Positions 3,040 through 19,498 of a stretch of 64,000 nt of DNA are shown piece after piece. The position numbers were made by a program, and so were the translations under genes. The notes beneath the pieces are model-generated. The model did not search any database. It saw only the letters and a list, made by a program, of their open reading frames with translations, and was not told where the DNA came from. The DNA is from Pigmentiphaga kullae (lineage in GTDB: Bacteria > Pseudomonadota > Gammaproteobacteria > Burkholderiales > Burkholderiaceae_B). The stretch is from positions 930,001 through 994,000 of the forward strand of contig NZ_SGXC01000002.1 of assembly GCF_004216695.1 (NCBI RefSeq), read 5' to 3'. The stretch's first letter is position 1. Every line of letters begins with the position of its first letter.

Positions 3040-3675
3040 GTGACCAGCGCCCTGCTGATCGACGATCACGCCATGTTCCGGGAGGGGCTGGCGCTTGCCC
3101 TGCGGCAAGCGGCCGGCCCCTCGCTGCATCTGCGCACCGCCGCCGGCGGCGCCGAGGCCCTGGCCCTGCTCAAGGACGCCACGGCCGACATCGCGCTGAT
3201 GGATTACTACCTGCCCGACCTGGGCGGCGCGGCGCTGGTGCGCCAGTTGCGGCGAGCGGGGGCCGGCTTGCGGATCATGGTGCTGTCCGCCTCTGAAGAC
3301 CAGGAAGACGCCGAAGCGGCCCTGGCCGCGGGCGCCCACGGCTTCCTGCACAAGTCGGCCGACGTCGGGCAATTGCTGGACGCCATGCGGCGGGTGCTGG
3401 CAGGGGAACTCGTGCGGCCCCCGGACAGCCCCCTTCCCGCCTCGCTGGCGGTCCTGTCCGAACAGCCCCCGGGCCGCCTGACGCCGCGCCAGACCGAGGT
3501 GCTTTGCCTGCTGTGCGAGGGCCTGCGCAACGGCGAGATCGCCGAGCGCCTGGCCACCACCGAGAAAACCGTCAAGGCTCACATCTCGGCCATCTTCGCC
3601 GCACTGGGCGTGGTCAACCGCACCCAGGCGGTACTGGCCGCGCGCCGCGCCGGCCTGTTCGGCAAACCCAGGTAG
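3040..3675 (+). CDS. LuxR/NarL-family response regulator
   Basis: A 211-residue two-component regulator. The receiver domain has the acidic pair Asp8-Asp9, the phospho-acceptor Asp55 (LMDYYLPD) and Lys105 (LHKSAD). A LuxR-type helix-turn-helix fills the C-terminus (LTPRQTEVLCLL...NGEIAERLATTEKTVKAHISAIFAALG). The start is a GTG 13 nt after the bamD stop. The gene converges on the hybrid histidine kinase next door with a gap of only a few bases, so the two probably form a signalling pair. Target genes are unknown. The nearby lipoprotein array is an obvious candidate, but this is inference. Confidence 0.9.
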   Translation: MTSALLIDDHAMFREGLALALRQAAGPSLHLRTAAGGAEALALLKDATADIALMDYYLPDLGGAALVRQLRRAGAGLRIMVLSASEDQEDAEAALAAGAHGFLHKSADVGQLLDAMRRVLAGELVRPPDSPLPASLAVLSEQPPGRLTPRQTEVLCLLCEGLRNGEIAERLATTEKTVKAHISAIFAALGVVNRTQAVLAARRAGLFGKPR

Positions 3676-3682
3676 GCCGAGG

Positions 3683-5428
3683 CTAACCCAGCATTCTTGC
3701 CAGGGCCTCCCGCAGCTCGGCGGGCTCGACCGGCTTGTGCATCAGCGGCCAGGTGCGCGCGGCCGCCTCCGCCAGGCGCTGGGGGTCGGTATCGCCGCTG
3801 ACCAGCATCGCCGGGATGCTCTCGTCGTTGTATTCCTCGTGCAGGGCGTCGATCACCTCGATTCCCGTCTCATGGTTGCGCAGCCGGTAGTCGCTGATGA
3901 TCAGGTCCGGCCGCTCGTTGCGCTGGGCCGCGGCCAGCAGGATCTCGCGGCCGCTGGCGCCGGCCACGACCCTGCAGCCCCAGGCCTCCAGCAGCAACTG
4001 CAAGCCGTGGCGGTTCTCGGTGTCGTCGTCGATCACGAACACCAGCCGCCCCCGCAGCGCGCCGGCGGCACGATGGGCCGGCGCCGCAGCCGGCTGGTCG
4101 ACGTGCCGCTCCGCCATCCGGGGCACGGTAATGGCAAAAACACTGCCCCGCCCCGGGCGCGAGCGCAGCCCGACGGTATGCCCGAGCAGCTTGGCCGTGC
4201 GCCGCACGATGGCCAGCCCCAGGCCCAGGCCCTTGCCCCGGTCGCGCTCGGGATTGTTCAACTGGTGGAACTCCCAGAATACCTTGTCCTGCTCGGATGC
4301 CGGGATGCCCGCCCCGGTGTCCCAGACCTCGATGCGCCAGGCTCCCCGCCGGGGGCGGCACGCCAGCAGCACCCCGCCGCGCGGGGTGTTGCGTATGGCG
4401 TTGTCGACCAGGTTGCGCAGGATCCGGTCCAGCAGCGCCGGATCGGTATAGACCACCGCCCGCGTGGGCCGCACGCGCAGGACCAGCGACTTGGCATCGG
4501 CCTGGGGCGTGAATTCCAGCAGCAACTGGTCGAACAGCGCGGCCAGCGCGAAAGTCCGCCGGTTCACGCGCACCACGCCGGCGTCCAGGCGCGAGATGTT
4601 CAGCAGCGCCTCGAACAGCGTCCCCAGCGCCGAGGCGGCCCGCCCCACGCTGTCGACCAGGCGCCGGCTTTCGTCTGGCAGCGGTTGTTCCTTCAGCACG
4701 CCGATGAACAGGCTGAGCGCATGGACCGGCTGGCGCAGGTCGTGGCTGGCCGCGGCCAGGAAGCGCGACTTGGCCAGGTCGCTGCGCTCGGCGGCATCCT
4801 TCTCGCGCTGCAGGCTCTCGACCAGGGAAAGGTTCTCGAAGCGCAGGCGCAGCGAGTCGATCTGCGTGCGCGACATGCGCTGCGCGAACACCAGCGTGAC
4901 GGCCAGGTACAGCGCCGCCGCCAGCGCCAGCACGGTATGCATGGTGCCCGGAATGGTCAGGATGGCGACGAAAGGCAGCGAGAAATACGGCAGTTCAAAG
5001 GCATACAGCAGCGGCAGGTCGATGCAATAGGCGTAGATCGCCCCCGTGCCCAGGGTCAGCAGCGCGACGATGAGGAACATCTGGTGCGGCAGGTCCACGT
5101 GCAGCATCCAGTAGGCGAACGGAATCCCCCACAGCAGCCCGGCCACCCCGGTCGTGGCGATGGCGGCCCGCCGCCAGCGGGCCAGGCCCGCCGCGCTGCC
5201 GGTCGCCCTGCGATATCGCGTGACGCCCCAGGCACGGACCAGCGTCCAGGCCGCCTGCGCCAGGAACCAGGCCAGCAGTTGCCCCGCGGGCACCGCATCG
5301 CGCAGCGCCGCCCACACCAACCCCACCGTCAATAGCGCGCCGCACAGCGAGAACGGCAGGTTGCGGCGAAGGATCGCCGCCTGTTCGGCCTGGATCTGCT
5401 CGGCAAGGGGAAGGCGGGAGGCGGACAT
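3683..5428 (-). CDS. Membrane hybrid sensor histidine kinase/response regulator
   Basis: A 581-residue protein. Residues 25-185 are hydrophobic, with about six predicted membrane helices and no large periplasmic domain. A HisKA domain follows, with phospho-accepting His229 in ASHDLRQPVHAL, then an HATPase with N-box (LRNLVDNAIRNTPRGG) and G1 box (DTGAGIP). The C-terminal receiver domain has the acidic triplet DDD, phospho-acceptor Asp513 (ISDYRL) and Lys565 (MHKPVEP). The start is the ATG that gives a sensible N-terminus; the frame is open further upstream, across the gap toward the first lipoprotein gene. The signal sensed is unknown. It is encoded tail to tail with the LuxR-type regulator and head to head with the lipoprotein array. 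Confidence 0.9.
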   Translation of the reverse strand: MSASRLPLAEQIQAEQAAILRRNLPFSLCGALLTVGLVWAALRDAVPAGQLLAWFLAQAAWTLVRAWGVTRYRRATGSAAGLARWRRAAIATTGVAGLLWGIPFAYWMLHVDLPHQMFLIVALLTLGTGAIYAYCIDLPLLYAFELPYFSLPFVAILTIPGTMHTVLALAAALYLAVTLVFAQRMSRTQIDSLRLRFENLSLVESLQREKDAAERSDLAKSRFLAAASHDLRQPVHALSLFIGVLKEQPLPDESRRLVDSVGRAASALGTLFEALLNISRLDAGVVRVNRRTFALAALFDQLLLEFTPQADAKSLVLRVRPTRAVVYTDPALLDRILRNLVDNAIRNTPRGGVLLACRPRRGAWRIEVWDTGAGIPASEQDKVFWEFHQLNNPERDRGKGLGLGLAIVRRTAKLLGHTVGLRSRPGRGSVFAITVPRMAERHVDQPAAAPAHRAAGALRGRLVFVIDDDTENRHGLQLLLEAWGCRVVAGASGREILLAAAQRNERPDLIISDYRLRNHETGIEVIDALHEEYNDESIPAMLVSGDTDPQRLAEAAARTWPLMHKPVEPAELREALARMLG

Positions 5429-5483
5429 CGGGCTCGGGATTCCGGAAATTGGCACAACGCTATCACGGACGGGGGCGCCCAGG

Positions 5484-5503
5484 CATTGGACCTTGGGCCA
5501 ATG
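5484..5503. promoter_or_regulatory. Inverted repeat in the kinase/lipoprotein divergent promoter region
   Basis: CATTGG and CCAATG form a perfect 6-bp inverted repeat with an 8-nt spacer. It lies about mid-way in the 133-nt gap between the kinase start and the first array gene. It could be a regulator site, but such short repeats also arise by chance. Confidence 0.25.
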
Positions 5504-5561
5504 TGCGCGGCATGGCATTCCGATACGCTGGCGGCCAATTCCCATCCGACAGGTACCGCCC

Positions 5562-7232
5562 ATGCTCCCTCGACTCCACGCCCGGCCGTTGCGCGTGCTG
5601 TCGCTGCTGTCCATCCTGGCCCTGGCTGCATGCGGCGGGGGGGAAGACGGCTCCGGCCCGGTGCCGCCACCTCCCGAGACCGTGCCGCAACTGGCCGTCG
5701 ATTGCAGCGGCCCCCATTGTGGCGCGGTCGATGCCCACCGCTACGCGGGCTCCGGGATCGGGGTCTGGCAGTACACCAACGACACCGACGACCGCGTGGA
5801 AGTGCCTGTCCGCATCGACGGCATACCGGGCAAGGACGTCCATCTTTCCTACGTGAACCAGTCGGATGCGCGGCAGAAGCTGCCGCCGCTGGAATTGTTC
5901 CTGCGCTCGCCCTACGCCGCCGCGGCCGCATCGGCCGCCCTGCTGCGCGCGGCGGGCCCCGCTCCGGATCCGGCGGAAAGCCGGCTGCCGCACGCGCCCT
6001 ACGACATGCGCGCCTTGCCCCGCCCCCGCATGAAAACCGCCTCCGGCCCGGCTCTGGCCAGCATGGCCGCCGCGGCGTCCCATCGGGTGGGCGACACGAA
6101 GCAATGGTGGGTAAATGATTTTTCGTACCGGGACGACGCCAAGGCGCTGCGTCCGACCACGCTGCGCCGCACTTTCCGCGTCGATGGCGCCGATCCCAGG
6201 ACCCTGAATATCTGGGTCGAGGACGCGGTCACGGACGCCGGCGTGCTGACCGACGAAGCGCTGGACCAACTGCAGGAACGGATCCGGACCACCTACGACC
6301 GGGTGACCAGGATCGCGGGGCCGATCTGGAACGCAACACCCTACGAAGACATCATCGGCGCCGGCGAGGACCTGAACGTGGTGATCGTCGAGCGGATGGA
6401 GGTCCTGGGCTACGTCAGTTTCTCCGACACCTACGTGCGTCACTACTATCCGGACCTTCCTTACATCCAGCAGTCCAACGAAGCCCTGGCGGTGTACATG
6501 CACGCCCGGACCATCTACGCCCCCGATGACGTCTATACCGACTTCATCCAGAATTTCTCGCACGAACTCACGCACCTCGTGTTCTGGTTCTATCGAGGCA
6601 TTCTCGGCGGCAACGAGTACAACTTCGACTCCTGGCTGAACGAAACAGTCGCCGAAGCGATGAAGGACCTGGTCTACCATCCCGACGACCCGGCGCCCTC
6701 CGACACCGCGGCGCGTTTCCGAAGCTGGATGATCTGGGGCCGGTACGGTAGTTTCAACTGCGATCTGCGCGACATGTATCCGATCCCCTCGCCGGACCGG
6801 GCCTGCTACGGCTACAACACGGTCAATTCGCTGGCGGCCTACCTGATGCGCCAGTACGGCGTCGATCTGTTCGTCTCGCTGTTGAACGATTACAGCTCGA
6901 CCGACACCTTCGAGATCCTCGACCACTCCCTCCGGCAGGTGGGGGGCGACGGTTTCAAGGCCATGCTGCGCCGCTTCGGCAGCAGCGCGGCGCTGTTTCC
7001 CGCGGCCGCCTCGCCGGCCGGATTCGGCTATCCCGAGAGGCACGAACACGAGATCTCCCTCGTGCCGCTGGACGGCGCGTCGTATGCAGACATCACCGCA
7101 CTGCCGGCCAGCGTCCCGCTTTACCTGGAACCCTACGGCTTCTTCCCGTTCGTGCGGCCCCGCATCCAGGGCAGCTACAGCGAAACCCTGCTCGTTCCGC
7201 CGCGCTCCAGCCTGAGCATCGTCATCCGATAG
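5562..7232 (+). CDS. Putative M30-like zinc metalloprotease lipoprotein, array member 1
   Basis: A 556-residue predicted lipoprotein; the lipobox LAAC puts the lipidated Cys at residue 24, and +2 Gly favours the outer membrane. After a Pro-rich linker comes a module shared by all five array members: DCSGPHCGAVDAHRY then GVWQYTN. A gluzincin-like site follows: HELTH at 334-338 and a candidate third ligand Glu361 in SWLNE. A second conserved Cys pair surrounds FNCDL...CYGYN, and the chain ends SSLSIVIR. The M30 (hyicolysin-like) assignment is inferred from motif and spacing. A secreted or surface protease is likely; the substrate is unknown. The start is chosen by the signal peptide. The next gene begins 12 nt downstream. 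Confidence 0.8.
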   Translation: MLPRLHARPLRVLSLLSILALAACGGGEDGSGPVPPPPETVPQLAVDCSGPHCGAVDAHRYAGSGIGVWQYTNDTDDRVEVPVRIDGIPGKDVHLSYVNQSDARQKLPPLELFLRSPYAAAAASAALLRAAGPAPDPAESRLPHAPYDMRALPRPRMKTASGPALASMAAAASHRVGDTKQWWVNDFSYRDDAKALRPTTLRRTFRVDGADPRTLNIWVEDAVTDAGVLTDEALDQLQERIRTTYDRVTRIAGPIWNATPYEDIIGAGEDLNVVIVERMEVLGYVSFSDTYVRHYYPDLPYIQQSNEALAVYMHARTIYAPDDVYTDFIQNFSHELTHLVFWFYRGILGGNEYNFDSWLNETVAEAMKDLVYHPDDPAPSDTAARFRSWMIWGRYGSFNCDLRDMYPIPSPDRACYGYNTVNSLAAYLMRQYGVDLFVSLLNDYSSTDTFEILDHSLRQVGGDGFKAMLRRFGSSAALFPAAASPAGFGYPERHEHEISLVPLDGASYADITALPASVPLYLEPYGFFPFVRPRIQGSYSETLLVPPRSSLSIVIR

Positions 7233-7244
7233 CAAGGATCCGCC

Positions 7245-8951
7245 ATGACAAGCACCTCTGCACGAACATGCGTCCCGATCAGGTCCCTGGCCATCCATGG
7301 CGTGTGGCTGCTCCTGGCCGCCTGTGGCGGGGACGGCGACCAAGCCCTGCCGGCCCCGCCCGTCGTGCCTCCCGCGGCCAGCCTGGCGGTGGACTGCGCG
7401 GGCCCTCATTGCGGCGCGATCGCCCCCGACCGCTACGACGGCCAAGGCATCGGCCTGTGGCAATACACGAACGACACGGACGAACGAGTGGCGCTGCCCA
7501 TACGGATAGCCGGCATCCCCGGCAAGGATGTCCAGTTGATCTACGCCAGCCATTCCGATACACCACAAAAACTGCCTGCGCTGGAACTCTTTGTCCGCTC
7601 GCCCTATCCGGGCGCAGCGCTGGCGTCCACCCTGAACGGCCTTTCCCTGCGCGCAGGTCAGCCTTCCACATTCCCCACGATCCGCCATGGCCGCATTCCG
7701 GAGGCCATGTGGCGCAAATTTCGGGCGCAGCGGCAAATCTCGCCGCAGTTGCGGGCCGCGCCCGATGTCCGCGTCCCGCCCCAGGTGGGCGATCGGCGGA
7801 ACTGGTGGATAGACTCATCCGTCGACGAACCAGACTCCATCCGGTCGCGCCCCGCCACGTTGCGCAAGCAGGTCATGGCCTCGGGTATCGATCCTCGCCG
7901 GGTGAACTTCTGGGTCGCCGACCCCACGGAGGGTCCGGACCTCATCACCGATGGCATGCTGGACCAACTGGCCCAACGCGTCCTGGCAGGGGACGATTCA
8001 TCCTATGCCCGCCTGGTGGCGCTTGCCGGGCCGCTCTGGGGGCCCAGCCCATACGAAAACGTTATCCCGCCCGACCAGGACCTTCACATCGTCATTGCCG
8101 ATGGATTGGCCAGCGGCGGCTACGTCGACCTGCTCAACGTGCTGAGGCGAGACATGCCCACCGGCATCCCGGAGATCGACGAATGGCTGCGCTTCAGCAA
8201 CGAGGCCATCGCCGCCGTCCTCCATGCCGCCTCGGTGTACGACCCGCTCGGTCCTGTCGGCTACGGGCCTTCGACGCTGATGCATGAACTGACCCACGCG
8301 GCCACCGCCTATGGACGCGACTTCAGCCGCACGATCTCCTACGCCAACGACACGTGGCTGGAGGAAATGGTCGCCACCATGATGCAGGACGTGCAGTTCC
8401 GGGAAGACCTCGATTCCAAGCACTCGATACGGGACGACAGGCTCGCGAGCTGGCTCCGGTTGGTCAAATGGGGTTCGCTGAACTGCGACCTGCGCTCGGT
8501 CTCGGCCTCGGACTTTACCCAGGCCTGCTACGGCTACGACCGGGTGGGCAGCTTCGGCGCCTTCCTGCTGCGCCAGTTCGGCGTGGCATTCTTCCACGGA
8601 CTGCTGCAGAACACGAGTTCGCGGGACTCGTTCGAGGTCCTGGATGATGCCATCCGGCAGGCGGGCGGCGCCGGGTTCGCCCAGGCCTGGCAGCGGTTCT
8701 CGACGATTGCGGCCCTGCTGCCGGCCACGAATGTACCGACAGGCTTCGGCATGCCGGCGCGCAAGGAGAACGGCTACGCGCTGGTCCCCATGGACGGCGC
8801 ACGCTATGCCGTCAGCGAACTCCCCACGGCCACGCCCATGCAGCTCGCCCCCTACGGCATCTTTCCTTTCGTGCGCCCGGGCATCCAGGGCACCTACCGG
8901 GAAACCGTGACCGTACCTCCCCACACCAGCCTGTCGGTGGTCATCCGATAG
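7245..8951 (+). CDS. Putative M30-like zinc metalloprotease lipoprotein, array member 2
   Basis: A 568-residue paralogue of member 1. The lipobox LAAC gives Cys27. The N-terminal module is DCAGPHCGAIAPDRY plus GLWQYTN. The zinc site is intact: HELTH at 347-351 and Glu374 in TWLEE. The mid-protein pair LNCDL...ACYGYD and the C-terminal FPFVRPGIQGTYRET...TSLSVVIR are conserved. The stretch between the N-terminal module and the catalytic region is poorly conserved among paralogues. A ribosome binding site (AGGA) precedes the ATG. The spacing fits one transcript with its neighbours. Confidence 0.8.
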   Translation: MTSTSARTCVPIRSLAIHGVWLLLAACGGDGDQALPAPPVVPPAASLAVDCAGPHCGAIAPDRYDGQGIGLWQYTNDTDERVALPIRIAGIPGKDVQLIYASHSDTPQKLPALELFVRSPYPGAALASTLNGLSLRAGQPSTFPTIRHGRIPEAMWRKFRAQRQISPQLRAAPDVRVPPQVGDRRNWWIDSSVDEPDSIRSRPATLRKQVMASGIDPRRVNFWVADPTEGPDLITDGMLDQLAQRVLAGDDSSYARLVALAGPLWGPSPYENVIPPDQDLHIVIADGLASGGYVDLLNVLRRDMPTGIPEIDEWLRFSNEAIAAVLHAASVYDPLGPVGYGPSTLMHELTHAATAYGRDFSRTISYANDTWLEEMVATMMQDVQFREDLDSKHSIRDDRLASWLRLVKWGSLNCDLRSVSASDFTQACYGYDRVGSFGAFLLRQFGVAFFHGLLQNTSSRDSFEVLDDAIRQAGGAGFAQAWQRFSTIAALLPATNVPTGFGMPARKENGYALVPMDGARYAVSELPTATPMQLAPYGIFPFVRPGIQGTYRETVTVPPHTSLSVVIR

Positions 8952-8988
8952 GCCCGGACATCACCGGCAATCGTCTCAAGGAAAAGCC

Positions 8989-10656
8989 ATGCTCTCCTTT
9001 TCGCTACGCATGCATACCCTTCCCCTCCGGCTGGCCCTGCTCGGTCCGGCGCTCGTGCTGTCGGCCTGCGGCGGCGACGGCGCCGTGACGCCCGACACCC
9101 CCGAGCCGCCGCCTCCGGCCGTCGCCCAACTGGCCGTCGATTGCAGCGGCCCCCATTGCGGCGCGGTCGACGCCCATCGCTACCTGGGCTCGGGCGTAGG
9201 CATCTGGCAATACACGAACACGACGGGCGAACGGCGCGAGGTGGAGATCGACATCTCGGGCCTGGCCGGCAAGGACGTGCAGTTGATCATGACGAACCAC
9301 GGCGACGCGCCGCAGAAGATGCCCGGCATCGAATTGTTCGAGCGCTCGCCCTACCCGGCGGATGCGCCCGCGGCCGCACGGCGCGCCCCCGCCTTTTCCC
9401 TGGCCGTGCCGTTCGCTGCGGAACAGGCCACGGAGAAACGGGCCACGGAAAAACAGGCCACCGCCAGCCGGGCCGTCGCTCCTGCCTCCGTCGTGGGCGC
9501 CACGCGCCCGTGGTGGGTCGATACGTGGACCGAAGGCCGGGTCGAACGCCCGTTCACGCTGTATCGCCAGGGGCAGGCCCAGGGGCCGGATGGCCCGCGC
9601 CGTGTCAACATCTGGCTCGAGGACGACCAATACGGCGACGCGCTGGTCAGCGACGCCATGCTGGATGCGCTGCTGCAGCGCGTGGCCACGGGCCCCCATG
9701 CCGTCTATGCCAGAGCGACGGACCTCGCCGGCGAGCCTTGGGGGCCGCACGAGACAGCCGGCGCGATACCGCCGGCGCAGGACCTGAACATCGTGCTGGG
9801 CAAGGAGCTGGCCTACGTGTCCTACCCGGGCGGCCGGGACTTGCGCATCCGCCAACAGACGGGCAATCCCGACTTCGACGAATACGTCCGCACCAGCAAC
9901 GAGGCACTTGCCGTGTACCTGACCACGGAGCGCTTCTATCAGCCGGACGACTACTACGCATCCGGCGAACCGGCCGCAGCCATGGCGCTGATGCTGACTC
10001 AGATGGCCAACATCTATCACCGCTCGGCGCTACCCGCCAACGACCAGTCCTTCGAACCCTGGCTCGACATGATGACGGCCCTGATGATGCAGGACATCCT
10101 CTATCTGCCCGGCATCGACGCGTACCAACCCGTGGGCGACATCTACCGCTGGTACTGGCTGTCGGGCGGCGCCGCGGACGGCTTCAACTGCGACCTGAAG
10201 ACCGCGCGGGACGCCAACGGCAACAGTTGCTATGTCCTTGGCGTACAGGCGTCCTTAGGCGCCTACCTGCTGCGGCAGTACGGCATCGGCTTCTATCGGC
10301 AACTGCTGCGCAACACCAGTTCTTCCGATTCCTGGGCCATCCTGGACGACGCCATCAGGCAGGCGGGCGGAGAAGGCGCGGATGCCGCCCTGCGCCGCTT
10401 CGCCACCAACATCGCCCTGCTGCCGGCGGCCGCCTCGCCCAAGGGCTACGGGCTGCCGGAACGGACCGACGGCGCCTACACGCTGGCCGCCATCGACGGC
10501 GCTACCTACGCGAGCGAACTGGCCCTGCCCACCGACACGATCATGACCCTGATGCCGCGCGCCTTCTTCCCCTTTGCCCGGCCGGCCGTGCGGGACACCT
10601 ACCGGGAGAACATCGCCGTGCCGCCGCACGCCAGCCTGTCGGTCGTCGTGCGCTAG
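8989..10656 (+). CDS. Array member 3: paralogous lipoprotein with a degenerate zinc site
   Basis: A 555-residue paralogue with lipobox LSAC (Cys27), DCSGPHCGAVDAHRY, GIWQYTN, the FNCDL...SCYVLG Cys pair and the ending ASLSVVVR, so the overall fold should match the others. The zinc site is gone. Where the paralogues have HE[LM]TH, residues 334-338 read LMLTQ, and the third-ligand Glu is Met361 (WLDMM). Alignment here is gap-free, anchored by the flanking ANIYHRS (ANVYRRG in member 5) and ALMMQDILYLPG. The frame is otherwise intact and full length, so it is probably a pseudoenzyme with a binding or regulatory role, not a decaying gene. A good Shine-Dalgarno (AAGGA) precedes the ATG. Confidence 0.8.
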   Translation: MLSFSLRMHTLPLRLALLGPALVLSACGGDGAVTPDTPEPPPPAVAQLAVDCSGPHCGAVDAHRYLGSGVGIWQYTNTTGERREVEIDISGLAGKDVQLIMTNHGDAPQKMPGIELFERSPYPADAPAAARRAPAFSLAVPFAAEQATEKRATEKQATASRAVAPASVVGATRPWWVDTWTEGRVERPFTLYRQGQAQGPDGPRRVNIWLEDDQYGDALVSDAMLDALLQRVATGPHAVYARATDLAGEPWGPHETAGAIPPAQDLNIVLGKELAYVSYPGGRDLRIRQQTGNPDFDEYVRTSNEALAVYLTTERFYQPDDYYASGEPAAAMALMLTQMANIYHRSALPANDQSFEPWLDMMTALMMQDILYLPGIDAYQPVGDIYRWYWLSGGAADGFNCDLKTARDANGNSCYVLGVQASLGAYLLRQYGIGFYRQLLRNTSSSDSWAILDDAIRQAGGEGADAALRRFATNIALLPAAASPKGYGLPERTDGAYTLAAIDGATYASELALPTDTIMTLMPRAFFPFARPAVRDTYRENIAVPPHASLSVVVR

Positions 10657-10664
10657 GAGCCTCC

Positions 10665-12335
10665 ATGCAAATCGCCGCCCGAGTCCTTTCCCTGCTCGCC
10701 GCCGCCAGCCTGATGCTGCTGTCGGGATGCGGCGGCGATGGCGATCCCATCGCCCCGCCGGAACCGCCGCCTCCCGGTGCGCAACTCGAGGTCGATTGCA
10801 GCGGCCCCCGCTGCGGCGCCATCGATGCCCACCGCTACGCAGGCTCGGGCATCGGCATCTGGCAGTACACCAACACCGGCGACGAGCGGGTCGCGCTGCC
10901 CGTCAGGCTGGCAGGCCTGGCCGGCAAGGACGTGCAACTGATCTACACCAACCATGGGGACACGCCGCAGCGCCTGCCGGCGCTGGAGCTGTACCTGCGA
11001 TCGCCATATCCTCTGGCGGCGCCCGCCGCCAGGCTGGCGGCCCCGGCCGGCGCGGACGCGGCCAAGGGCGAAGGCCCACGCCGCCATCGGCGGCCCGACC
11101 TGCCGCCGATGGCGGCCGATCCGATGCAAGGGTTGAAGAGCCGCAAACCCTCGCCCTCGGCCAAAATCATCGCGCCGCGCGTGGCCGCCCCGGCGCCCCG
11201 GCTCGGAGACGTGCGCACCTGGCGGGTGTCCGGATACGGGATGGGCACGGACGAGGACGCGTTCCGCCGCTCGACCCTGGTCCGCCAGGCCGTGGCCCGC
11301 GACGGGCGCGGCATCCACGTCTGGGTCGATGCGCAAACCCAGGCGGCGGGAAGCGTGACCGACGCGATGCTGGACGGTTTCATCCGTGACCTGGTCGAGG
11401 GAGAAACCGCGGTCTACGACCGAACCGTCGCACTGTCCGGACCGCCATGGGGGCCGTATCCCGACGTCGGGTTGCCGGCCCTTGCCCCTGATCAGGACCT
11501 GCACGTGGCCTTCATCCGCGACATGATGGCGGCCGGGATGGTGCACTGGAACGACGTCGGGCTGAACGACCCGGCTGGCCCTCCGGAGGACAATCTCAGC
11601 AATGAAGCGCTGGTCCTCTTCATCTCCGACGACAATTTCTACAATCCGGTGCTGGATGAACTGGCCACCTTCACCCATGAACTGACTCACCTTTCCACCC
11701 GCTACCGGCAGGTCATCGCCAAGGAGCCGGGGCAGGAATACTTCCACCAATCCTGGTTCGTCGAACTGATGGCGCTGATGGCCGAGGACGCCCTCTACCT
11801 GCCCGGACTGAACCGCCACCACGAGAGCCGGGATTTCTTCGTCCGCTACTGGCTGCGCGGCCAGGGCTTCAACTGCGACATCCTGTCGATCGCCATCCTG
11901 GCCGTGGACCGCTGCGACAGCTACAACATCAACTCGACCATAGGCGCCTACCTGCTGCGCCACTACGGCATGGCCCTTTATCAACGGCTGCTGGACGAGA
12001 CCGGCGCGCCGGACTCCTGGGGCATCCTGGACAAGGCCATCCGCGACGTGGGCGGCCCCGGCGTGCAGACCACGCTGCGCCGCATCGGCACGACCATCGC
12101 GCTGCTGCCGGCAGCTTCGCCGCCGAACTTCGGCCTGGGCGCCAGAAGCGATGCCGGCTACGAGCTCGTGCCGATGGACGGCTCGCTATACGCGGACTAC
12201 GGACTGCCAACGAGCGTACCGATGTACCTGCAGCCGCGAGGATTCTTCCCGTTCGTGCGGCCCGCGGTGCGGGACGTCTATGAGGAAACCATCACCGTCC
12301 CGCCCCATACCAGCGTGTCAGTCGTGGTCCGATGA
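10665..12335 (+). CDS. Putative M30-like zinc metalloprotease lipoprotein, array member 4
   Basis: A 556-residue paralogue with lipobox LSGC (Cys22), DCSGPRCGAIDAHRY and GIWQYTN. The zinc site is HELTH at 338-342, with candidate Glu367 in SWFVE. FNCDI...RCDSYN and the ending TSVSVVVR are conserved. It starts 8 nt after the stop of member 3, and its AGGAG overlaps that stop region. The frame is also open far upstream across member 3; that part is a high-GC shadow, and the signal peptide fixes the start. It has a longer basic Arg/Lys-rich segment around residues 125-175 than members 1 and 3. Confidence 0.8.
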   Translation: MQIAARVLSLLAAASLMLLSGCGGDGDPIAPPEPPPPGAQLEVDCSGPRCGAIDAHRYAGSGIGIWQYTNTGDERVALPVRLAGLAGKDVQLIYTNHGDTPQRLPALELYLRSPYPLAAPAARLAAPAGADAAKGEGPRRHRRPDLPPMAADPMQGLKSRKPSPSAKIIAPRVAAPAPRLGDVRTWRVSGYGMGTDEDAFRRSTLVRQAVARDGRGIHVWVDAQTQAAGSVTDAMLDGFIRDLVEGETAVYDRTVALSGPPWGPYPDVGLPALAPDQDLHVAFIRDMMAAGMVHWNDVGLNDPAGPPEDNLSNEALVLFISDDNFYNPVLDELATFTHELTHLSTRYRQVIAKEPGQEYFHQSWFVELMALMAEDALYLPGLNRHHESRDFFVRYWLRGQGFNCDILSIAILAVDRCDSYNINSTIGAYLLRHYGMALYQRLLDETGAPDSWGILDKAIRDVGGPGVQTTLRRIGTTIALLPAASPPNFGLGARSDAGYELVPMDGSLYADYGLPTSVPMYLQPRGFFPFVRPAVRDVYEETITVPPHTSVSVVVR

Positions 12336-12362
12336 AGCACCTTTCTCCCTGGAGTATCTGCC

Positions 12363-14060
12363 ATGTCCCTGCCCCGGTTCCATCGGCTGCCGCCATCGCT
12401 GCTCGCCATGCTGCTCGGGCTGGCCATGGCCTCCTGCGGCGGCGACTCCCAGCCCGGCTCCACGCCGCAGACCGAAGTCCCCACGTCGCCCGGACTCACG
12501 GTGGATTGCGAAGGCCCCCGTTGCGGCGCGACGGATGCGCATCGCTATGCCGGCGCGGGGGTTGCGGTCTGGCAGTACACCAATGCCACCGCCGCCAACG
12601 TGGAGGTGCCGGTGCGCATCGACGGGATTCCCGGCCGTGACGTACAGCTCGTATTCGCCAATCTGGGCAAGACGCCGCAATCCATGCCGCCGCTCGCACT
12701 GGCAGCGCGCTCGCCCTATCCCGTGGACTTGCTCCCCGCCCCGGCGCAGGTGTCCCGCGCATCCGTATCGCGCCTGGCATCGATTCGGCCCGCGGCGCGG
12801 CTCAATGCCGGTCATCGCCAACGCCCCGCCAGCAGGCTGTCCGACGTGTTGCATCGCGCCACGGCGGTCCCCGAAGCCACTGCGCCGCACGACGAAGCAC
12901 CAGGAAGCACGCGTTCCTGGCTGGTCCAACAGAGTGGCGACGTCATGGATGTCTCCGAGCGCCGGGTCACGCTGGCCCGCCGGCAACACGCGCCGGACGG
13001 GCGCGTGGTCAACCTGTGGATGGAGGATGGCCAGCTCGAGAGCGGTCTGGTCACGGCCGGCCAGCTCGACAAACTGATCGAACGGTTCGCGGTAGGACCA
13101 GCCTCCATCTATGCCAGGGTTTCCGACATCGCCGGACCGCCCTGGGGCCCTCACTCCCGCGCCGGTCTCATACCCGCCGACCAGCCGCTGGACATCGTCT
13201 TCGTCACGGGCATCGCATCGATGGCCCAGGCCTACGTCCGCATCGATGATTTCCCGCTGCGCCCCACGGACCCGGCCCCCGACGATCCGCGCCGCACCAG
13301 CAACGCCGCGCTGTCCATCGTCATGAGCGTCGAGACGCTATACACCTCCCTCTACCCGCGAAACTACGAACCGGCGGCTTCGGTACTGGCCCATGAAATG
13401 ACCCATCTGGCCAACGTCTACCGCCGCGGCATCCAGCGCGGCGACGATGACTACCGCCATGCCGTCTGGCTTGAAGAAACCACGGCACTGATGATGCAGG
13501 ACATCCTGTTCGATCCTGAACGCGACACGCTGCACGAAATCCGCGACAGCGCGCTGTTCGCCTGGATGGTCCTGGGCAGCGAAGGCGGGTTCAACTGCGA
13601 CCTGGCCCGGTACTCCAACGATCCTTCCGAGCTGTGCGTCAGCTTCCCCGTGCAGGGGGCTTTCGGCGCATACCTCCTGCGCCACTACGGATTGGCGTTC
13701 TACCGTGATCTGCTGCGCAACATGTCGTCGACCGACTCCTGGGAAATGCTGAACGACGCCATCCGGCAAGCAGACGGGCCGGGTCTTACGGTCGCGTTGA
13801 GGCGTTTCAGTGCGGCCATCGCCCTGCTTCCCGCCGGCACGTCCCCGCCCGGCTATGGATTCCCCGAACGCAGGGAGTCGGGATACACGCTCGTGCCCCT
13901 GGACGGCTCTCTGGACGCTGACACCCCTCTGCCCGGCAGCCTGCCGGAACAGCTCGTCCCACACGGTTTCTTCGCCACCGCGCGGCCGAACATGCGCGGC
14001 ACCTACCTCGAGACCATTACGGTACCGCCGGGCACGGCACTGTCCGTCGTCGTCCGCTAG
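12363..14060 (+). CDS. Putative M30-like zinc metalloprotease lipoprotein, array member 5
   Basis: A 565-residue paralogue with lipobox MASC (Cys25), DCEGPRCGATDAHRY and AVWQYTN. The zinc site is HEMTH at 344-348, with Glu372 in VWLEE. FNCDL...LCVSFP and the ending TALSVVVR are conserved. It is the last gene of the array and ends 12 nt before the convergent monooxygenase gene. No intrinsic terminator is visible between them. The five genes share orientation and gaps of 8-37 nt, which implies an operon made by tandem duplication. Confidence 0.8.
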   Translation: MSLPRFHRLPPSLLAMLLGLAMASCGGDSQPGSTPQTEVPTSPGLTVDCEGPRCGATDAHRYAGAGVAVWQYTNATAANVEVPVRIDGIPGRDVQLVFANLGKTPQSMPPLALAARSPYPVDLLPAPAQVSRASVSRLASIRPAARLNAGHRQRPASRLSDVLHRATAVPEATAPHDEAPGSTRSWLVQQSGDVMDVSERRVTLARRQHAPDGRVVNLWMEDGQLESGLVTAGQLDKLIERFAVGPASIYARVSDIAGPPWGPHSRAGLIPADQPLDIVFVTGIASMAQAYVRIDDFPLRPTDPAPDDPRRTSNAALSIVMSVETLYTSLYPRNYEPAASVLAHEMTHLANVYRRGIQRGDDDYRHAVWLEETTALMMQDILFDPERDTLHEIRDSALFAWMVLGSEGGFNCDLARYSNDPSELCVSFPVQGAFGAYLLRHYGLAFYRDLLRNMSSTDSWEMLNDAIRQADGPGLTVALRRFSAAIALLPAGTSPPGYGFPERRESGYTLVPLDGSLDADTPLPGSLPEQLVPHGFFATARPNMRGTYLETITVPPGTALSVVVR

Positions 14061-14072
14061 GGCCTGTTCACG

Positions 14073-15341
14073 CTAGCGAATGCGCACGCCAGGCTCGATC
14101 GTGGGCGGCCGTTCGTTGGTGGCCTGCACCGAGTACCCCGCTATCGCCTTGTACTGGACGGAATGCCGCGCCAGCTCTTCCTGCGGGACCACGTCCTCGA
14201 TGCGGTCGAAACGTCCGCCGCAGCGCTCCTCGACCAGGTCCAGGATGCTGTCCGGCCCGGCAACGCGATTGGTCAGGATGACCTGGGCCGTAGCCGGCCG
14301 CATCCTGGCCTCGTAGGCCGACAGCGCCTCGGGCGTCAATCCATGTTCCAGGAACGCCCTCCCCAGTTCCCTGGCATCGATGATGGCCGAACCCGCACCG
14401 TTCGAACCCACTGGATAGGCCGCATGAGCGGCGTCTCCCATCAGGCTGGTACGGCCGACCGTCCAATGGCCGAGCGGGTCGCGGTCCACCATCGGATACT
14501 CGTATACGGTATCCGCGGCCGCGATCAGCGCCGGCACGTCCAGCCAGTCGAAGCGCATGTCAGTAAAACGCGGCAGGAAATCCTCCAGGCGCGCCTCCCG
14601 GTTCCAGTCTTCCTTGTTCCAAGGCTGGCCGGGCTCGTAGTTCAGGTTCGCGATCCAGTTGATGGTCGCCAATCCGGTGCGGGGATCCGGCGCGGAAATC
14701 GGATAGGCGACGAAGCGCAGGCCGGAGTGGCCGATCATGACCATGGAGGCCCCCGTCTTGTAGGGAATCGCACGCGAAGTGCCGCGCCACAGGACGGCCC
14801 CTCCCCAGACGGGCTCGCCTTCGTCCGGCGCGATCTGCCGGCGAATGGCCGAATGGATGCCGTCGGCCCCGACCAGGATGTCTCCTCGTTCGATGCGGTC
14901 CGCGCCTTCGGCATTGCGTAGATGAAGCACCGCCTTGCCTCCCTCGTCGGCAAATCCGGTCGCCGCCCATCCGCACTCCACGCAATCCGGTCCGGCGCGC
15001 CGCAACAACTCTTCATACAGCATCATGTGCAGCCTGCCCCGATGGACCGAATATTGCGGCCACCGGTACCCCGCCTGCAAGCCGCGGGGCTCCGTCCAGA
15101 TGTGCAGGCCATGCTTGGTGTACATGCCATAGTCGCGGGTCCGGACGCCTATGTCATCGAGCAGGTGGCCAAGGCCGAGGTCCATCAATTCGCGGACCGC
15201 GCTCGGTTGAAGGTTGATACCCACCCCAAGGGGGCGGATCCGGCGGACGGTTTCAAAGACTTTGAAGGAAACGCCGATCTGCTGGCAGGTCAGCGCGAGG
15301 GACAGGCCGGCGATTCCGCCGCCGGCGATCAATACGGTCAT
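14073..15341 (-). CDS. FAD-dependent monooxygenase (PhzS/3-hydroxybenzoate hydroxylase-like)
   Basis: A 422-residue class A flavoprotein monooxygenase. The FAD-binding GGGIAG is at residues 7-12, the DG motif reads GADGIHSAIRR, and the GD motif reads LMGDAAHAAYPVGSNGAGSA. The RPLGVGINLQPSAVRELMDLG stretch resembles PhzS-type oxidoreductases. It probably uses NAD(P)H and O2 to hydroxylate an aromatic or heteroaromatic acid; the substrate is unknown. It lies downstream of a Bug receptor gene in the same direction, with a LysR gene divergent to that, so it is likely a small catabolic operon. The start is the ATG just before the dinucleotide-binding strand. Confidence 0.85.
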   Translation of the reverse strand: MTVLIAGGGIAGLSLALTCQQIGVSFKVFETVRRIRPLGVGINLQPSAVRELMDLGLGHLLDDIGVRTRDYGMYTKHGLHIWTEPRGLQAGYRWPQYSVHRGRLHMMLYEELLRRAGPDCVECGWAATGFADEGGKAVLHLRNAEGADRIERGDILVGADGIHSAIRRQIAPDEGEPVWGGAVLWRGTSRAIPYKTGASMVMIGHSGLRFVAYPISAPDPRTGLATINWIANLNYEPGQPWNKEDWNREARLEDFLPRFTDMRFDWLDVPALIAAADTVYEYPMVDRDPLGHWTVGRTSLMGDAAHAAYPVGSNGAGSAIIDARELGRAFLEHGLTPEALSAYEARMRPATAQVILTNRVAGPDSILDLVEERCGGRFDRIEDVVPQEELARHSVQYKAIAGYSVQATNERPPTIEPGVRIR

Positions 15342-15414
15342 GGTTGCGATACCTCGGGGTCGTGGTGCTTGCCACGGAGAAGAACGATGGGAAGGTCGTG
15401 AATGACGAGCGGGA

Positions 15415-16370
15415 TCACGGGCCCGCGTATCCCGCGCGCTCCACCATCGTGGCGAAGGCCGCCGTCGTCTCCTTGATGCGCGCGCCAAGCGCATCGGGCG
15501 AACTGGCGGCGGGAGCACGCCCAGCTCGCTGACCTTGGCCGCGAATGCGGGCGACTCCACGACGCGGGTAACCGCCCGGTTGTAGCGGCGCACGAGGTCG
15601 GTAGGTAATCCCGCAGGAGCAAGCACCGCGACGAAGCCGCTTACGCCGTAGCCGGCCAGCCCCTGTTCCACATAGGTCGGGACATGAGGTATCGAAGGCA
15701 GCCGTCTCGGACCGCTGACCGCGATGACGCGCACGCGGCCTTCCCGCTCGTACTGCATCATGGCCCCGATGGAACCGATGCCCGCGGGGATCTGCCCGGC
15801 GACGACATCCTGCACCACGGGTCCATCGCCCCGATACGGTATCGGCGTGACGTCGCCCCCGAAATCCCTGGCCAGGATCTGGACGCCGAAGTACGGATCG
15901 CTCGCGGGGGCCGGAACGCCCACGCTGCCCTTTCCGGGATGGGCATTCGCCCAGTCGATCAAGCCCTTCAGGTTGCGCACGTCGCCCAGCAGTTTGGGAT
16001 TGACCGCCAGGACATCGTTGGAGATCGCCACCAGCCCGACCGGCACGAAATCTCTTTGCGGATCGTAGCCGGGCTGGCGCACGGTCAACGGGATCATGGC
16101 CAGCGCATGGCTGTTCGACAGGAACAACGTATTGCCGTCGGCGGCGGCGCTCCTCAGCGCCACCGCCGCCAGTTGCCCACCGGCTCCAGGCTTGTTCTCG
16201 ACGATGACATTTCGCTGCAACTGGTCCGACATCCCCTGCGCCAGGTGGCGGGCGATGACGTCGTTGCTGCCGCCGGCGGGAAAGCCCACCAGCAGGCGCA
16301 GCGGAGGCTGCTGGGCAATGGCGATGCAGGGCAGCAGCACTGCCAGCATCAGGCTCAAGCGGCGTTTCAT
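15415..16370 (-). pseudogene. Bug-type tripartite tricarboxylate receptor, frameshifted near its 3' end
   Basis: The N-terminus has a signal peptide (MKRRLSLMLAVLLPCIAIAQ) and the Bug hallmark LLVGFPAGGSNDVIARHLAQ, and homology continues to SELGVLPPP. Near position 15505 the frame then breaks. The missing C-terminus, SSPDALGARIKETTAAFATM and on to a TGA, is present in the next frame. The length is one base short of 319 codons, so a single-base loss in the CCGCCGCC run explains it. Read without correction, the frame runs on through the downstream monooxygenase and would make a nonsense-linked fusion. It may be a true inactivating mutation or a sequencing error. Bug proteins bind small carboxylates in the periplasm. 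Confidence 0.8.
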
Positions 16371-16478
16371 GGGTTCGCTCCTTGGCGGGTGGCGTTCGGC
16401 ATTCCCGGTGCAGGCACAGGGGCTGGAACGCATTCTGCGAACAAAGCGGGCGAAGTGGAATTGATGAAATCGAACCTA

Positions 16479-16497
16479 TATTGCGTAATATGCAATA
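16479..16497. promoter_or_regulatory. LysR-type operator candidate (T-N11-A palindrome)
   Basis: TATTGC and GCAATA flank a 7-nt spacer, giving a T-N11-A dyad typical of LysR-family boxes. It lies 24 nt before the LysR ATG and about 110 nt upstream of the divergent Bug gene, which fits autoregulation and control of that gene. Confidence 0.5.
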
Positions 16498-16521
16498 CCA
16501 GGCTCACTCTCCTTTCCTGCC

Positions 16522-17391
16522 ATGAACGTCGACCTGTTCGCCCTGAAAGCCTTCGTCATCCTGGCCGAACACCTGCATTTCGCCCAGGCCGCAACCGCGC
16601 TGCATGTTTCGCCGTCCCGCCTGACACGCGTCGTCCAGTCGCTGGAACGGGAAATGGGCGTCCGCCTGCTGGCCCGTTCGACGCACGGCACCGCCCTGAC
16701 CGCCGACGGGACGGAATTTCTTCGCAGCGCCCGGCGCATCGTGGCCGAAATGGATTGGGCGGGCCGACGACTCACGCGGCGCAGCGTGGCGTCGGCCGCC
16801 ACGTTCACGGTGGGCTGCCTGGCAGGCAGCCTCTACGACTTGCTGCCCGAGCGCGTCCGCGCCGCCCGCCTCGCGCACCCCAAGGTGCAGATCCGGCTGA
16901 TCGAGATGCAGGAGGACGAGATGACCAGCCAGGTACTGGACGGGACGTTGGACATGGGCTTCCTGTATTTCCCCACGCCCGACGACGAAATGATCAGCCG
17001 GGTCGTCGCCCGCCGGGCCCAATGGGTCGCGATGGGCCCCGATCATCCCCTTGCCCGGCTGCAATCCCTGTCCATCAAGGATCTTGCCGGCCACACCATG
17101 ATTCTCCCCGACGAGACCGCGGCCCCACGGCTGCACCGGTGGTATCGCGGCTTCCTCGAAAAGAAGGGACGCCGCGCCGTCCAATATGTGGGAGCCAATC
17201 AGATCCACGTCGCCCTGGGCCTGTGCGCGGCCGGGGAAGGCCTGTGCGTGGTGGCGGAGAACCTGATGCATGTGCGGCGCGACGATCTGCACTACGTGCC
17301 GCTGGCCGATGCGCCCAAGACCGAGCTGACCGCCATCTGGCGCACCGATTCCCCGGTGCGCCAGGTCGCCCAGTTCATCGCGAAATGGTGA
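16522..17391 (+). CDS. LysR-family transcriptional regulator
   Basis: A 289-residue regulator. The N-terminal winged helix-turn-helix reads ALKAFVILAEHLHFAQAATALHVSPSRLTRVVQSLE, and the remainder is a LysR substrate-binding domain with no membrane segments. It is divergent from the Bug/monooxygenase pair and likely controls it in response to the pathway substrate. Its 3' end overlaps the convergent helicase gene by 17 nt. Confidence 0.9.
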   Translation: MNVDLFALKAFVILAEHLHFAQAATALHVSPSRLTRVVQSLEREMGVRLLARSTHGTALTADGTEFLRSARRIVAEMDWAGRRLTRRSVASAATFTVGCLAGSLYDLLPERVRAARLAHPKVQIRLIEMQEDEMTSQVLDGTLDMGFLYFPTPDDEMISRVVARRAQWVAMGPDHPLARLQSLSIKDLAGHTMILPDETAAPRLHRWYRGFLEKKGRRAVQYVGANQIHVALGLCAAGEGLCVVAENLMHVRRDDLHYVPLADAPKTELTAIWRTDSPVRQVAQFIAKW

Positions 17392-19498
17392 GCCTTTCCG
17401 GGCAGGTCTCGGGCGAGACGACCTCGCCCCTTTGAGCGTAGAAAGCCTCCACGTCCACCACGTTGCGCGTGCGCGTGAACGGCGGCAGGCCGCGCCACAG
17501 CAGCTTGCCGTAGGGCTTCTCGACCAGCCGGCGGTCGCCCACCATCAGCACGCCCCAGTCGGTTTCGGTGCGGATCAGCCGTCCCGCGCCCTGCTTGAGC
17601 GCGATGGCCGCCTCGGGCAGCTGGTATTCGAAGAAGGGATTGCCGCCCCGCTCGCGGCTGGCGCGGATGCGCGCGTCCAGCACCGGATCGTCGGGCGGCG
17701 CGAACGGCAGCTTGTCGATGGCCACCAGGGTCAACGCGTCGCCGGGCACGTCTATGCCTTCCCAGAAGCTGGCGCTGCCCACCAGCACGGCGTGTGCACT
17801 GGTCCGGAAGCGCTCCAGCAATTCGCGGCGGGAACGGTCGCCCTGCCTGAACAGGGGCCACTCCCAGCCGCGCTCGCGGAAGGCTTCCTGCAACAGCTCG
17901 GCCACCCGGTCCACCGCGCGCAGGGTCGTGCACAACACCAGCGCCGAACCCCGGCTGGCCGCCAGCACGGGCAACAGGGCCTCGACGAATCCTTCGGTGA
18001 AACGTGGATCCTGCGGCGCGGGAATGCCGTGCGGCACGAACAGCCGGCCGTTCGTACCATAGTCGAATGGCGATTCCCAGCGGCCGGTCGTGGCCTCGTA
18101 CAGGCCGAGCTGGCGTGTGAAATGGGAGAAATCCTCGCGCACCGACAAGGTGGCCGAGGTCAGGATCCAGGCCTGGCCCGCCGGCCGGTACTGCGAAAAC
18201 GCCTGCGCGACGGACAAGGGTGCGGTGTGCAGGCGGATGTGGCTGGCGCCGGTTTCCACCCAGCGCACCCAGCCGTCGTCGGCCCGCTGTTGGGGCGGCT
18301 CGGCAGGCTGTCCGGAAGACGACTCGGCCGCCGGCTCGGGCCAGGCGGATTCGGCCGGCTTGGCGGTCTGCTCCGGATGCGCCGGCGGCACGCCATGGGC
18401 CTCGGTCCAGCGCGCCAGCCGCGCGATCAGGTCGGGGCCGCGCTTGGCCACCATGTCCAGGTCGGGGTGGCGCTCGCCCACGGCCATCAGGATACGGCCC
18501 AGGGTGTGGACCGTATCGATCACCTGCTGCACCGCCTTGCCGAAGTCCCGGGGATTGGGCAGCGTGTCGAAGGTGCTGCGCTGGCCGGGCATTTTCTCGA
18601 CCGCCGCGCAGGACAGCCGAAGCTCGCGCGTGGCCTGCTCGACGGCCTGCCCCAGCACCGGCCAGTCCGCGCTTTCGCGCGCATGCGACAGGCCGGCGAC
18701 GGTGGCGTCGCGCGCGAAGTCCAGCAACTGGTGCGACGACACCGACTCGCCCAGGAAACGGGTGGCGGCGGCCGGCAACTGGTGGGCCTCGTCGAACACC
18801 ACGGTGTCGGCAGCCGGCAGCAGGTCGGTGATGCCTTCGTCCTTGAGCGCGAGGTCGGCCAGGAACAGCGCATGGTTCACCACCACAACGTCGGCCTCGA
18901 TCGCGCGCTTGCGGGCCTGCATGACGAAGCACTCGCGAAAGGCAGGACAATCGGATCCCAGGCAGTTGTCGCGGGTGGAGGTCACCTTGTGCCAGATGTC
19001 CGCATTCTCGGGCACTTCGGCCAGTTCGGCCTTGTCGCCGCTGCGGGTGTGCTTGGCAAACACCTCGATCTTGCGCAGTTGCGCGACCTCCGCGCGCGAG
19101 GCCAGCCGGCCGTCGCCCACGGTGCGTTCGAGGTGGTAGTGGCACAGGTAGTTGGACCGGCCTTTCAGCAGCGCGATGACCACTGGCAGTCCCAGCGCGT
19201 CCCGCACGGCCGGCAGGTCGCGGGCGAACAACTGATCCTGCAGCGTCTTGGTCCCGGTCGAGACCAGCACCTTGCCGCCATGCATCAGCACCGGCACCAG
19301 GTATGCGAAGGTCTTGCCGGTACCGGTGCCGGCCTCGGCCACGAGCGTGCCGCGATCGCCAATGGCCTGCGCGATGGCCTGCGCCAGTTCGATCTGCTGG
19401 ATGCGGGGCCGATAGCCCTTGAGCCGGGCGGCCAGCGGGCCATCGGCCGCGAACACGGCGGCCACGTCGGCGCCGATGTCCATGATCGAAGCCGTCAT
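17375..19498 (-). CDS. ATP-dependent DNA helicase of the DinG/YoaA (XPD-like) family
   Basis: A 707-residue superfamily 2 helicase. Walker A (AGTGTGKT) ends with Lys62-Thr63, and the DEAH box is at 236-239. Four cysteines at 119, 179, 184 and 190 match the iron-sulfur cluster of the XPD/DinG/YoaA group. A helicase domain 2 with the LKQGAGRLIR motif is near the C-terminus. The length and cluster spacing suit YoaA/DinG, which act in DNA repair and R-loop or replication-fork processing. The ATG overlaps the stop codon of the small DUF465 gene upstream (ATGA), so the two are coupled. Confidence 0.9.
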   Translation of the reverse strand: MTASIMDIGADVAAVFAADGPLAARLKGYRPRIQQIELAQAIAQAIGDRGTLVAEAGTGTGKTFAYLVPVLMHGGKVLVSTGTKTLQDQLFARDLPAVRDALGLPVVIALLKGRSNYLCHYHLERTVGDGRLASRAEVAQLRKIEVFAKHTRSGDKAELAEVPENADIWHKVTSTRDNCLGSDCPAFRECFVMQARKRAIEADVVVVNHALFLADLALKDEGITDLLPAADTVVFDEAHQLPAAATRFLGESVSSHQLLDFARDATVAGLSHARESADWPVLGQAVEQATRELRLSCAAVEKMPGQRSTFDTLPNPRDFGKAVQQVIDTVHTLGRILMAVGERHPDLDMVAKRGPDLIARLARWTEAHGVPPAHPEQTAKPAESAWPEPAAESSSGQPAEPPQQRADDGWVRWVETGASHIRLHTAPLSVAQAFSQYRPAGQAWILTSATLSVREDFSHFTRQLGLYEATTGRWESPFDYGTNGRLFVPHGIPAPQDPRFTEGFVEALLPVLAASRGSALVLCTTLRAVDRVAELLQEAFRERGWEWPLFRQGDRSRRELLERFRTSAHAVLVGSASFWEGIDVPGDALTLVAIDKLPFAPPDDPVLDARIRASRERGGNPFFEYQLPEAAIALKQGAGRLIRTETDWGVLMVGDRRLVEKPYGKLLWRGLPPFTRTRNVVDVEAFYAQRGEVVSPETCPERLTISR

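Follow-up and report, generated by a model that had tools for sequence, protein, structure and literature searches.

Hyicolysin, which we take to be the type member of peptidase family M30 (Pfam PF10460), is a secreted enzyme of a Gram-positive bacterium. The same family contains lugdulysin, a zinc metallopeptidase of Staphylococcus lugdunensis (PDB 7bb8/7bb9). One paper places hyicolysin in subclan MA(E) (PMC3268031), and another lists a "Peptidase M30" among Delftia nanopod proteins (PMC3110197). The locus described here lies in a 64,000-nucleotide stretch of the Pigmentiphaga kullae genome (the window, whose positions are used throughout) and consists of five head-to-tail genes for M30 lipoproteins, A to E, of 555–568 codons, at 5562–14060 on the forward strand with intergenic gaps of 12, 37, 8, and 27 nt (Table 1). 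Although PF10460 is common to hyicolysin and the array proteins, the latter are lipoproteins of a Gram-negative bacterium.

The array is genuine, long, and of a known kind; what is new is a conserved member that has lost its catalytic residues, C, and a sensor–regulator pair that is inherited together with the array. We regard it as probable that these M30 lipoprotein genes form an accessory operon that is tied to a two-component pair and includes C as a conserved pseudoprotease. Searches of the titles and abstract openings of open-licence literature found no description of an M30 array, an M30 pseudoprotease, or a mixed active/inactive M30 complex. Conserved pseudoproteases show roles of the protease fold besides cutting, and in this case a protease family that has been little studied includes a dead member that four genomes retain alongside its active paralogues and a sensor probably dedicated to them. 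Should the locus prove ordinary, it would still be the longest M30 array among the genomes sampled, and the view of five working proteases is corrected.

The M30 array and its member without catalytic residues

A PF10460 profile search, as proposed in the preliminary description, matched all five proteins at E values of 3e-44 to 1e-70 (151.6–238.3 bits, with a curated cut-off of 25.8 bits), and an NCBIfam search returned nothing above cut-off. B to E are 40–44% identical to A. Each protein has a lipobox that ends in Cys-Gly-Gly, an N-terminal module of 75 residues (the N-module, with the signature VDC..GP.CGA ... WQYTN ... RSPY), a variable linker, and the catalytic region matched by PF10460. 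Common to all five are the lipobox with its Gly-Gly, DC-x-GP-[HR]-CGA, [VIL]WQYTN, a second Cys pair (NCD...C), and a terminal S[VI]V[VI]R, so that the description of a five-gene tandem array with shared motifs was borne out. Three other genomes carry orthologous arrays (three or four genes each), which rule out an assembly artefact and, together with the five profile matches, chance.

Structure prediction, also proposed there, gave the M30 catalytic fold for both proteins modelled (A and C), with the variable linker as a low-confidence stretch. Lugdulysin structure 7bb8 ranked first with a second structural aligner; it was not among the best 50 of 173 Foldseek matches. Lugdulysin and the array proteins share the predicted catalytic fold, and HExxH, the distal Glu, and the catalytic Tyr align; they differ in the N-terminal module of the array proteins, approximately residues 44–92 of A preceding the aligned range. 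The profile, the sequence relation to lugdulysin, and the predicted fold support the M30/gluzincin assignment made earlier: by sequence all five proteins belong to M30, and the two modelled ones are predicted to have its fold.

Table 1. Genes and intervals of the locus, in window coordinates
Feature	Position	Strand	Basis
Response regulator (receiver and LuxR-type HTH), co-inherited with the array	3040..3675	+	Pfam Response_reg, GerE
Hybrid sensor histidine kinase (HisKA, HATPase, receiver; N terminus hydrophobic by eye), divergent from A	3683..5428	-	Pfam
Intergenic region between kinase and A, divergent	5429..5561	.	Alignment
A: M30 lipoprotein, 556 aa; catalytic set H,E,H,E,Y complete	5562..7232	+	PF10460 profile, residue alignment, predicted fold
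B: M30 lipoprotein, 568 aa; catalytic set complete; absent from the G002 array	7245..8951	+	PF10460 profile, residue alignment
C: predicted M30 pseudoprotease lipoprotein, 555 aa; H,E,H,E,Y positions are L,M,Q,M,L	8989..10656	+	PF10460 profile, residue alignment, dN/dS 0.23–0.28, fold retained in model
D: M30 lipoprotein, 556 aa; catalytic set complete; final array gene in G006, G008, and G002	10665..12335	+	PF10460 profile, residue alignment
E: M30 lipoprotein, 565 aa; zinc site H,E,H,E with Phe for the catalytic Tyr; in 1 of 11 genus genomes	12363..14060	+	PF10460 profile, residue alignment
Segment between D and dinG (E, TctC/FAD-monooxygenase frame, LysR), whole in 1 of 11 genomes, this one	12336..17402	.	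Genome comparison

HE[LM]TH and a Glu 23–25 residues past the second His are found in A, B, D, and E and neither in C, so that HExxH with the distal Glu zinc ligand is present in all four of the former. The catalytic Tyr (Tyr315 of lugdulysin) is present in A, B, and D, with Phe in E and Leu in C. Among the 44 M30 proteins that cover the five positions (a 45th row, a remnant in G007, does not), 39 read HEHEY; the exceptions are the four C proteins (LMQML here, LLQFA in G006, LLQML in G008, and LLQID in G002) and E of this genome (HEHEF). In every genome with the array, four in all, the C protein is thus without both His, both Glu (catalytic and distal), and the catalytic Tyr, and no HExxH is found anywhere else in these four proteins. 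The earlier designation as a family of zinc proteases therefore goes too far: A, B, and D carry the full catalytic set, but C is by its residues an M30 homologue rather than an M30 peptidase and is classed as a conserved pseudoprotease. E, with an intact zinc site and no catalytic Tyr, is an M30 homologue of doubtful activity; in a lugdulysin mutant structure, Phe at this Tyr is combined with E242Q, whereas the Phe of E stands alone.

The C proteins of four genomes form one clade (support 100/100 in a tree of 44 proteins); because they group together, the loss of catalytic residues most likely predates the split of these species. Ratios of nonsynonymous to synonymous rates (dN/dS) were computed for whole genes by the pairwise Nei–Gojobori method, with six genome pairs per gene and three for B. 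C gave 0.23–0.28, about the constraint of A (0.21–0.29) and D (0.17–0.24), with 0.36–0.44 for B; the kinase gave 0.17–0.24, the regulator 0.08–0.14, bamD 0.09–0.26, and the single M30 gene found elsewhere in the genus 0.06–0.12. C is uninterrupted in all four arrays at 80–92% identity and is retained as a protein under purifying selection like its active neighbours. A decaying pseudogene is unsupported for C, given this dN/dS, and the fold is retained in its predicted model. A conserved dead paralogue beside active ones is known from mitochondrial processing peptidase and ClpP/ClpR; these belong to unrelated families.

It is highly improbable that C gained new chemistry or a metal-free active site instead of losing activity. 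Several replacement residues are alike in the four C orthologues (L-[ML]-x-x-Q, L-D-[MFI]), as such a gain would have it, but all four metal and acid–base positions and the Tyr have been replaced, the residue at the Tyr position differs among orthologues (L, A, L, and D), and no HExxH lies elsewhere in the protein.

The tree separates the array proteins, 16 of its 44, from the Neisseriaceae protein that is nearest to them (support 98/93), and the five genes are, from this phylogeny, paralogues of one old array clade; the tree program itself warns that placement is uncertain for E and for some further long branches. The single-copy M30 genes of the genus form a separate clade (100/100). The single M30 lipoprotein of the genus (G000:C3:372155) resembles the array proteins in a lipobox with a Gly run and a full catalytic set, and differs in being one gene in 8 of 11 genomes and slower-evolving. 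Between this genome and G006 (L072:7029-8744), B has a synonymous distance (dS) of 0.073, compared with 0.22–0.33 for A, C, and D, which suggests that B was exchanged recently.

The sensor–regulator pair and the history of the locus

The order in this genome is bamD, regulator, kinase (reverse), A-B-C-D-E, the TctC/FAD-monooxygenase frame (reverse), LysR, and dinG (reverse). A-B-C-D is followed by dinG in G006 and G008, as is A-C-D in G002. Across the 11 genus genomes the unit is present in 4, left as remnants in 2, and missing from 5, the empty sites (G001, G003, G004, G005, and G010) running from bamD to dinG with ~31–220 bp between matched stretches. Decayed pieces of the regulator and of the 3' end of D lie between bamD and dinG in G007. 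G009 (contamination estimate 8%) retains ~63 bp of the regulator start past bamD, with no dinG in the 16 kb fetched; past this remnant, its locus (L115, 1–12431) has no further match to the window, a rearrangement.

Matches to the regulator at 94–97% occur only in the three other array genomes, with paralogues at 32–42% in eight genomes (n = 11); for the kinase, matches at 87–94% are likewise confined to the three other array genomes, and a 42–43% paralogue occurs in five genomes, four of them array-bearing. The array, the divergent kinase, and the regulator are one co-inherited accessory unit between bamD and dinG, for which one gain and two losses are the simplest history. The open frame of the kinase extends to 5614, with a conserved Met at 5428; a kinase pseudogene in G002 was rejected, as both stops lie upstream of this Met.

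Two alternative roles of the array were weighed. Redundant nutrient-scavenging proteases that arose by tandem duplication, with C a dead leftover heading for loss, would agree with M30 lipoproteins being single or paired in other Burkholderiales and with the probable loss of the unit in two related genomes. We judge this quite unlikely, as C is intact and constrained like its active neighbours in every array and the gene absent from G002 is the active B, not C. Doubtful, too, is a competition or defence system that degrades antimicrobial peptides or the surface proteins of competitors or predators and diverges fast through conflict. The array dN/dS (0.17–0.44 versus 0.06–0.12 for the single M30 gene that these genomes also have), the patchy presence, and the adjoining sensor–regulator pair favour it; however, no whole-gene dN/dS exceeds 1, the unit holds regulator, kinase, and M30 genes only, and relaxed constraint fits the faster divergence too.

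The N-module and the proposed working of the array

Within the array, the N-module has a mean identity of 65% and the catalytic domain 41%, the N-module being higher in all 10 pairs. For 13 M30 proteins of other genera the values are 38% and 45% (N-module higher in 14 of 78 pairs), and for the array compared with the single-copy genus gene 36% and 37%. N-modules of orthologues in G006 and G008 are 91–97% alike and those of paralogues 56–72%. Four-fold sites differ at 116 of 271 positions in the N-module (0.43) and 474 of 913 in the catalytic domain (0.52), with 0.54 expected for unrelated codons; synonymous sites are near saturation in both. These identities and four-fold sites reject recent gene conversion as the cause of N-module conservation. 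The N-module appears, from these comparisons, to be specially constrained in the array lineage. Substrate diversification, as suggested in the preliminary description, fits catalytic domains that are more divergent than the shared N-module, and stays an inference.

All five lipoboxes read Cys-Gly-Gly without Asp at +2, and by the lipoprotein sorting rule the lack of Asp at +2 directs a protein to the outer membrane. Cys-Gly-Gly occurs in 37 of the 44 M30 proteins and Cys-Pro-Ser in one (G522_d); for six the scan gave no clear call. In the accessory operon that we favour, A to E would be co-transcribed under control of the kinase–regulator pair, and their products would be anchored in the outer membrane, cutting extracellular or periplasmic proteins. 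The constrained N-module may be a shared docking or display module, and the divergent catalytic domains may confer different specificities. C, found together with A and D in all four arrays, would serve these two in a role other than cutting, whether as scaffold, by binding substrate, or as regulator.

Several points weigh against this account. The alignments behind the A and C models include active homologues, so the model of C is not independent. Only four genomes carry the array, and because the unit was probably lost twice it is dispensable. Control of the array by the kinase and regulator rests on adjacency and co-inheritance: a dyad with 6-bp arms at 5484–5503 is conserved in four genomes, but by itself this candidate operator does not exceed chance (212 of 500 shuffles do as well), and a scan expecting ~1 sigma-70-like site by chance across the whole region gave none upstream of A. 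Array proteins and their nearest relative, the Neisseriaceae protein, are 56% identical in the N-module and 42% in the catalytic domain (N-module higher in 5 of 5); because that relative's locus has one M30 gene and shows the same trend, the constraint on the N-module need not stem from the array. Old gene conversion of the N-module is possible, synonymous sites there being slightly less saturated.

The same trend in the single-gene relative lowers the odds of a further reading, which we consider unlikely: that the array makes a hetero-oligomeric protease anchored in the membrane. Its paralogues would be joined via the N-module, the dead C would be obligate, either as scaffold or to gate substrate, and the level would be set by a two-component system dedicated to it.

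M30 genes elsewhere and further observations

Relatives at E 1e-10 were found in 8 of 268 genomes of the family (43 genera), all 8 in this genus; the 257 family genomes outside the genus gave no match at this threshold. The closest of seven named loci are in a metagenome-assembled genome, Burkholderiales bacterium 67-32 (91%), and in Pigmentiphaga sp. NML030171 (78%). These relatives point to Pigmentiphaga (Alcaligenaceae) and give no support to Bordetella or Achromobacter, the genera that the preliminary description proposed to survey. PF10460 was detected in 3 of 398 genomes of a phylum sample and 10 of 399 of an order sample, this genome being within both (at most 4 candidates were scored per genome, which makes any high copy number there a lower bound), and in 11 of 43 genomes of one family. 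No M30 protein was found in 14 control genomes. Adjacent M30 paralogues also occur in G845, G1026, and Undibacterium squillarum, which differ from the array in having two genes each; outside the genus, no M30 array longer than a pair was seen in the genomes sampled. The pairs of G845 and U. squillarum have complete catalytic sets, and the N-module is not their more conserved part. The M30 frames of Undibacterium (L053, L054, L055, and L056; 827–862 codons stop to stop) have ~300 extra residues before the M30 core. With B as the only query, 15 of 72,556 plasmid records held one relative each at E 1e-10. Plasmid relatives in Cupriavidus and Variovorax (H1–H12) are annotated "hemagglutinin," a name that the M30 relation does not support.

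Neighbourhoods of 12 M30 loci of other genera were called with a home-made gene caller, which missed many genes in L053 and L130, and neighbours were scanned with Pfam in three (L052, L129, and L132); no partner gene common to M30 loci of other genera emerged from these three of 12. A LysR regulator adjoins M30 in L052 and L129. In L132 (G999), one frame (5869–7662) that faces the M30 gene combines receiver, LuxR-type, PAS, HisKA, and HATPase domains, a second case of M30 with two-component domains alongside. Other M30 genes, too, can thus have a regulator next to them.

Downstream of E, a 786-residue frame (14073–16433, reverse) joins a TctC-like protein (residues 60–306) to an FAD monooxygenase-like protein (365–719); the TctC match stops 30 positions short of the end of the profile, and the frame therefore looks frameshifted or fused. 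Genes for a Slam protein and for type II secretion proteins D, E, F, and G are also present in the genome; either system could export lipoproteins, and nothing ties them to the array. The Slam gene (contig C1, L148:42-7320) follows the genes for a TonB-dependent receptor and for a PKD-domain lipoprotein that starts CGGGDGGG and, judged by these neighbours, is probably part of a Slam-dependent surface lipoprotein locus.
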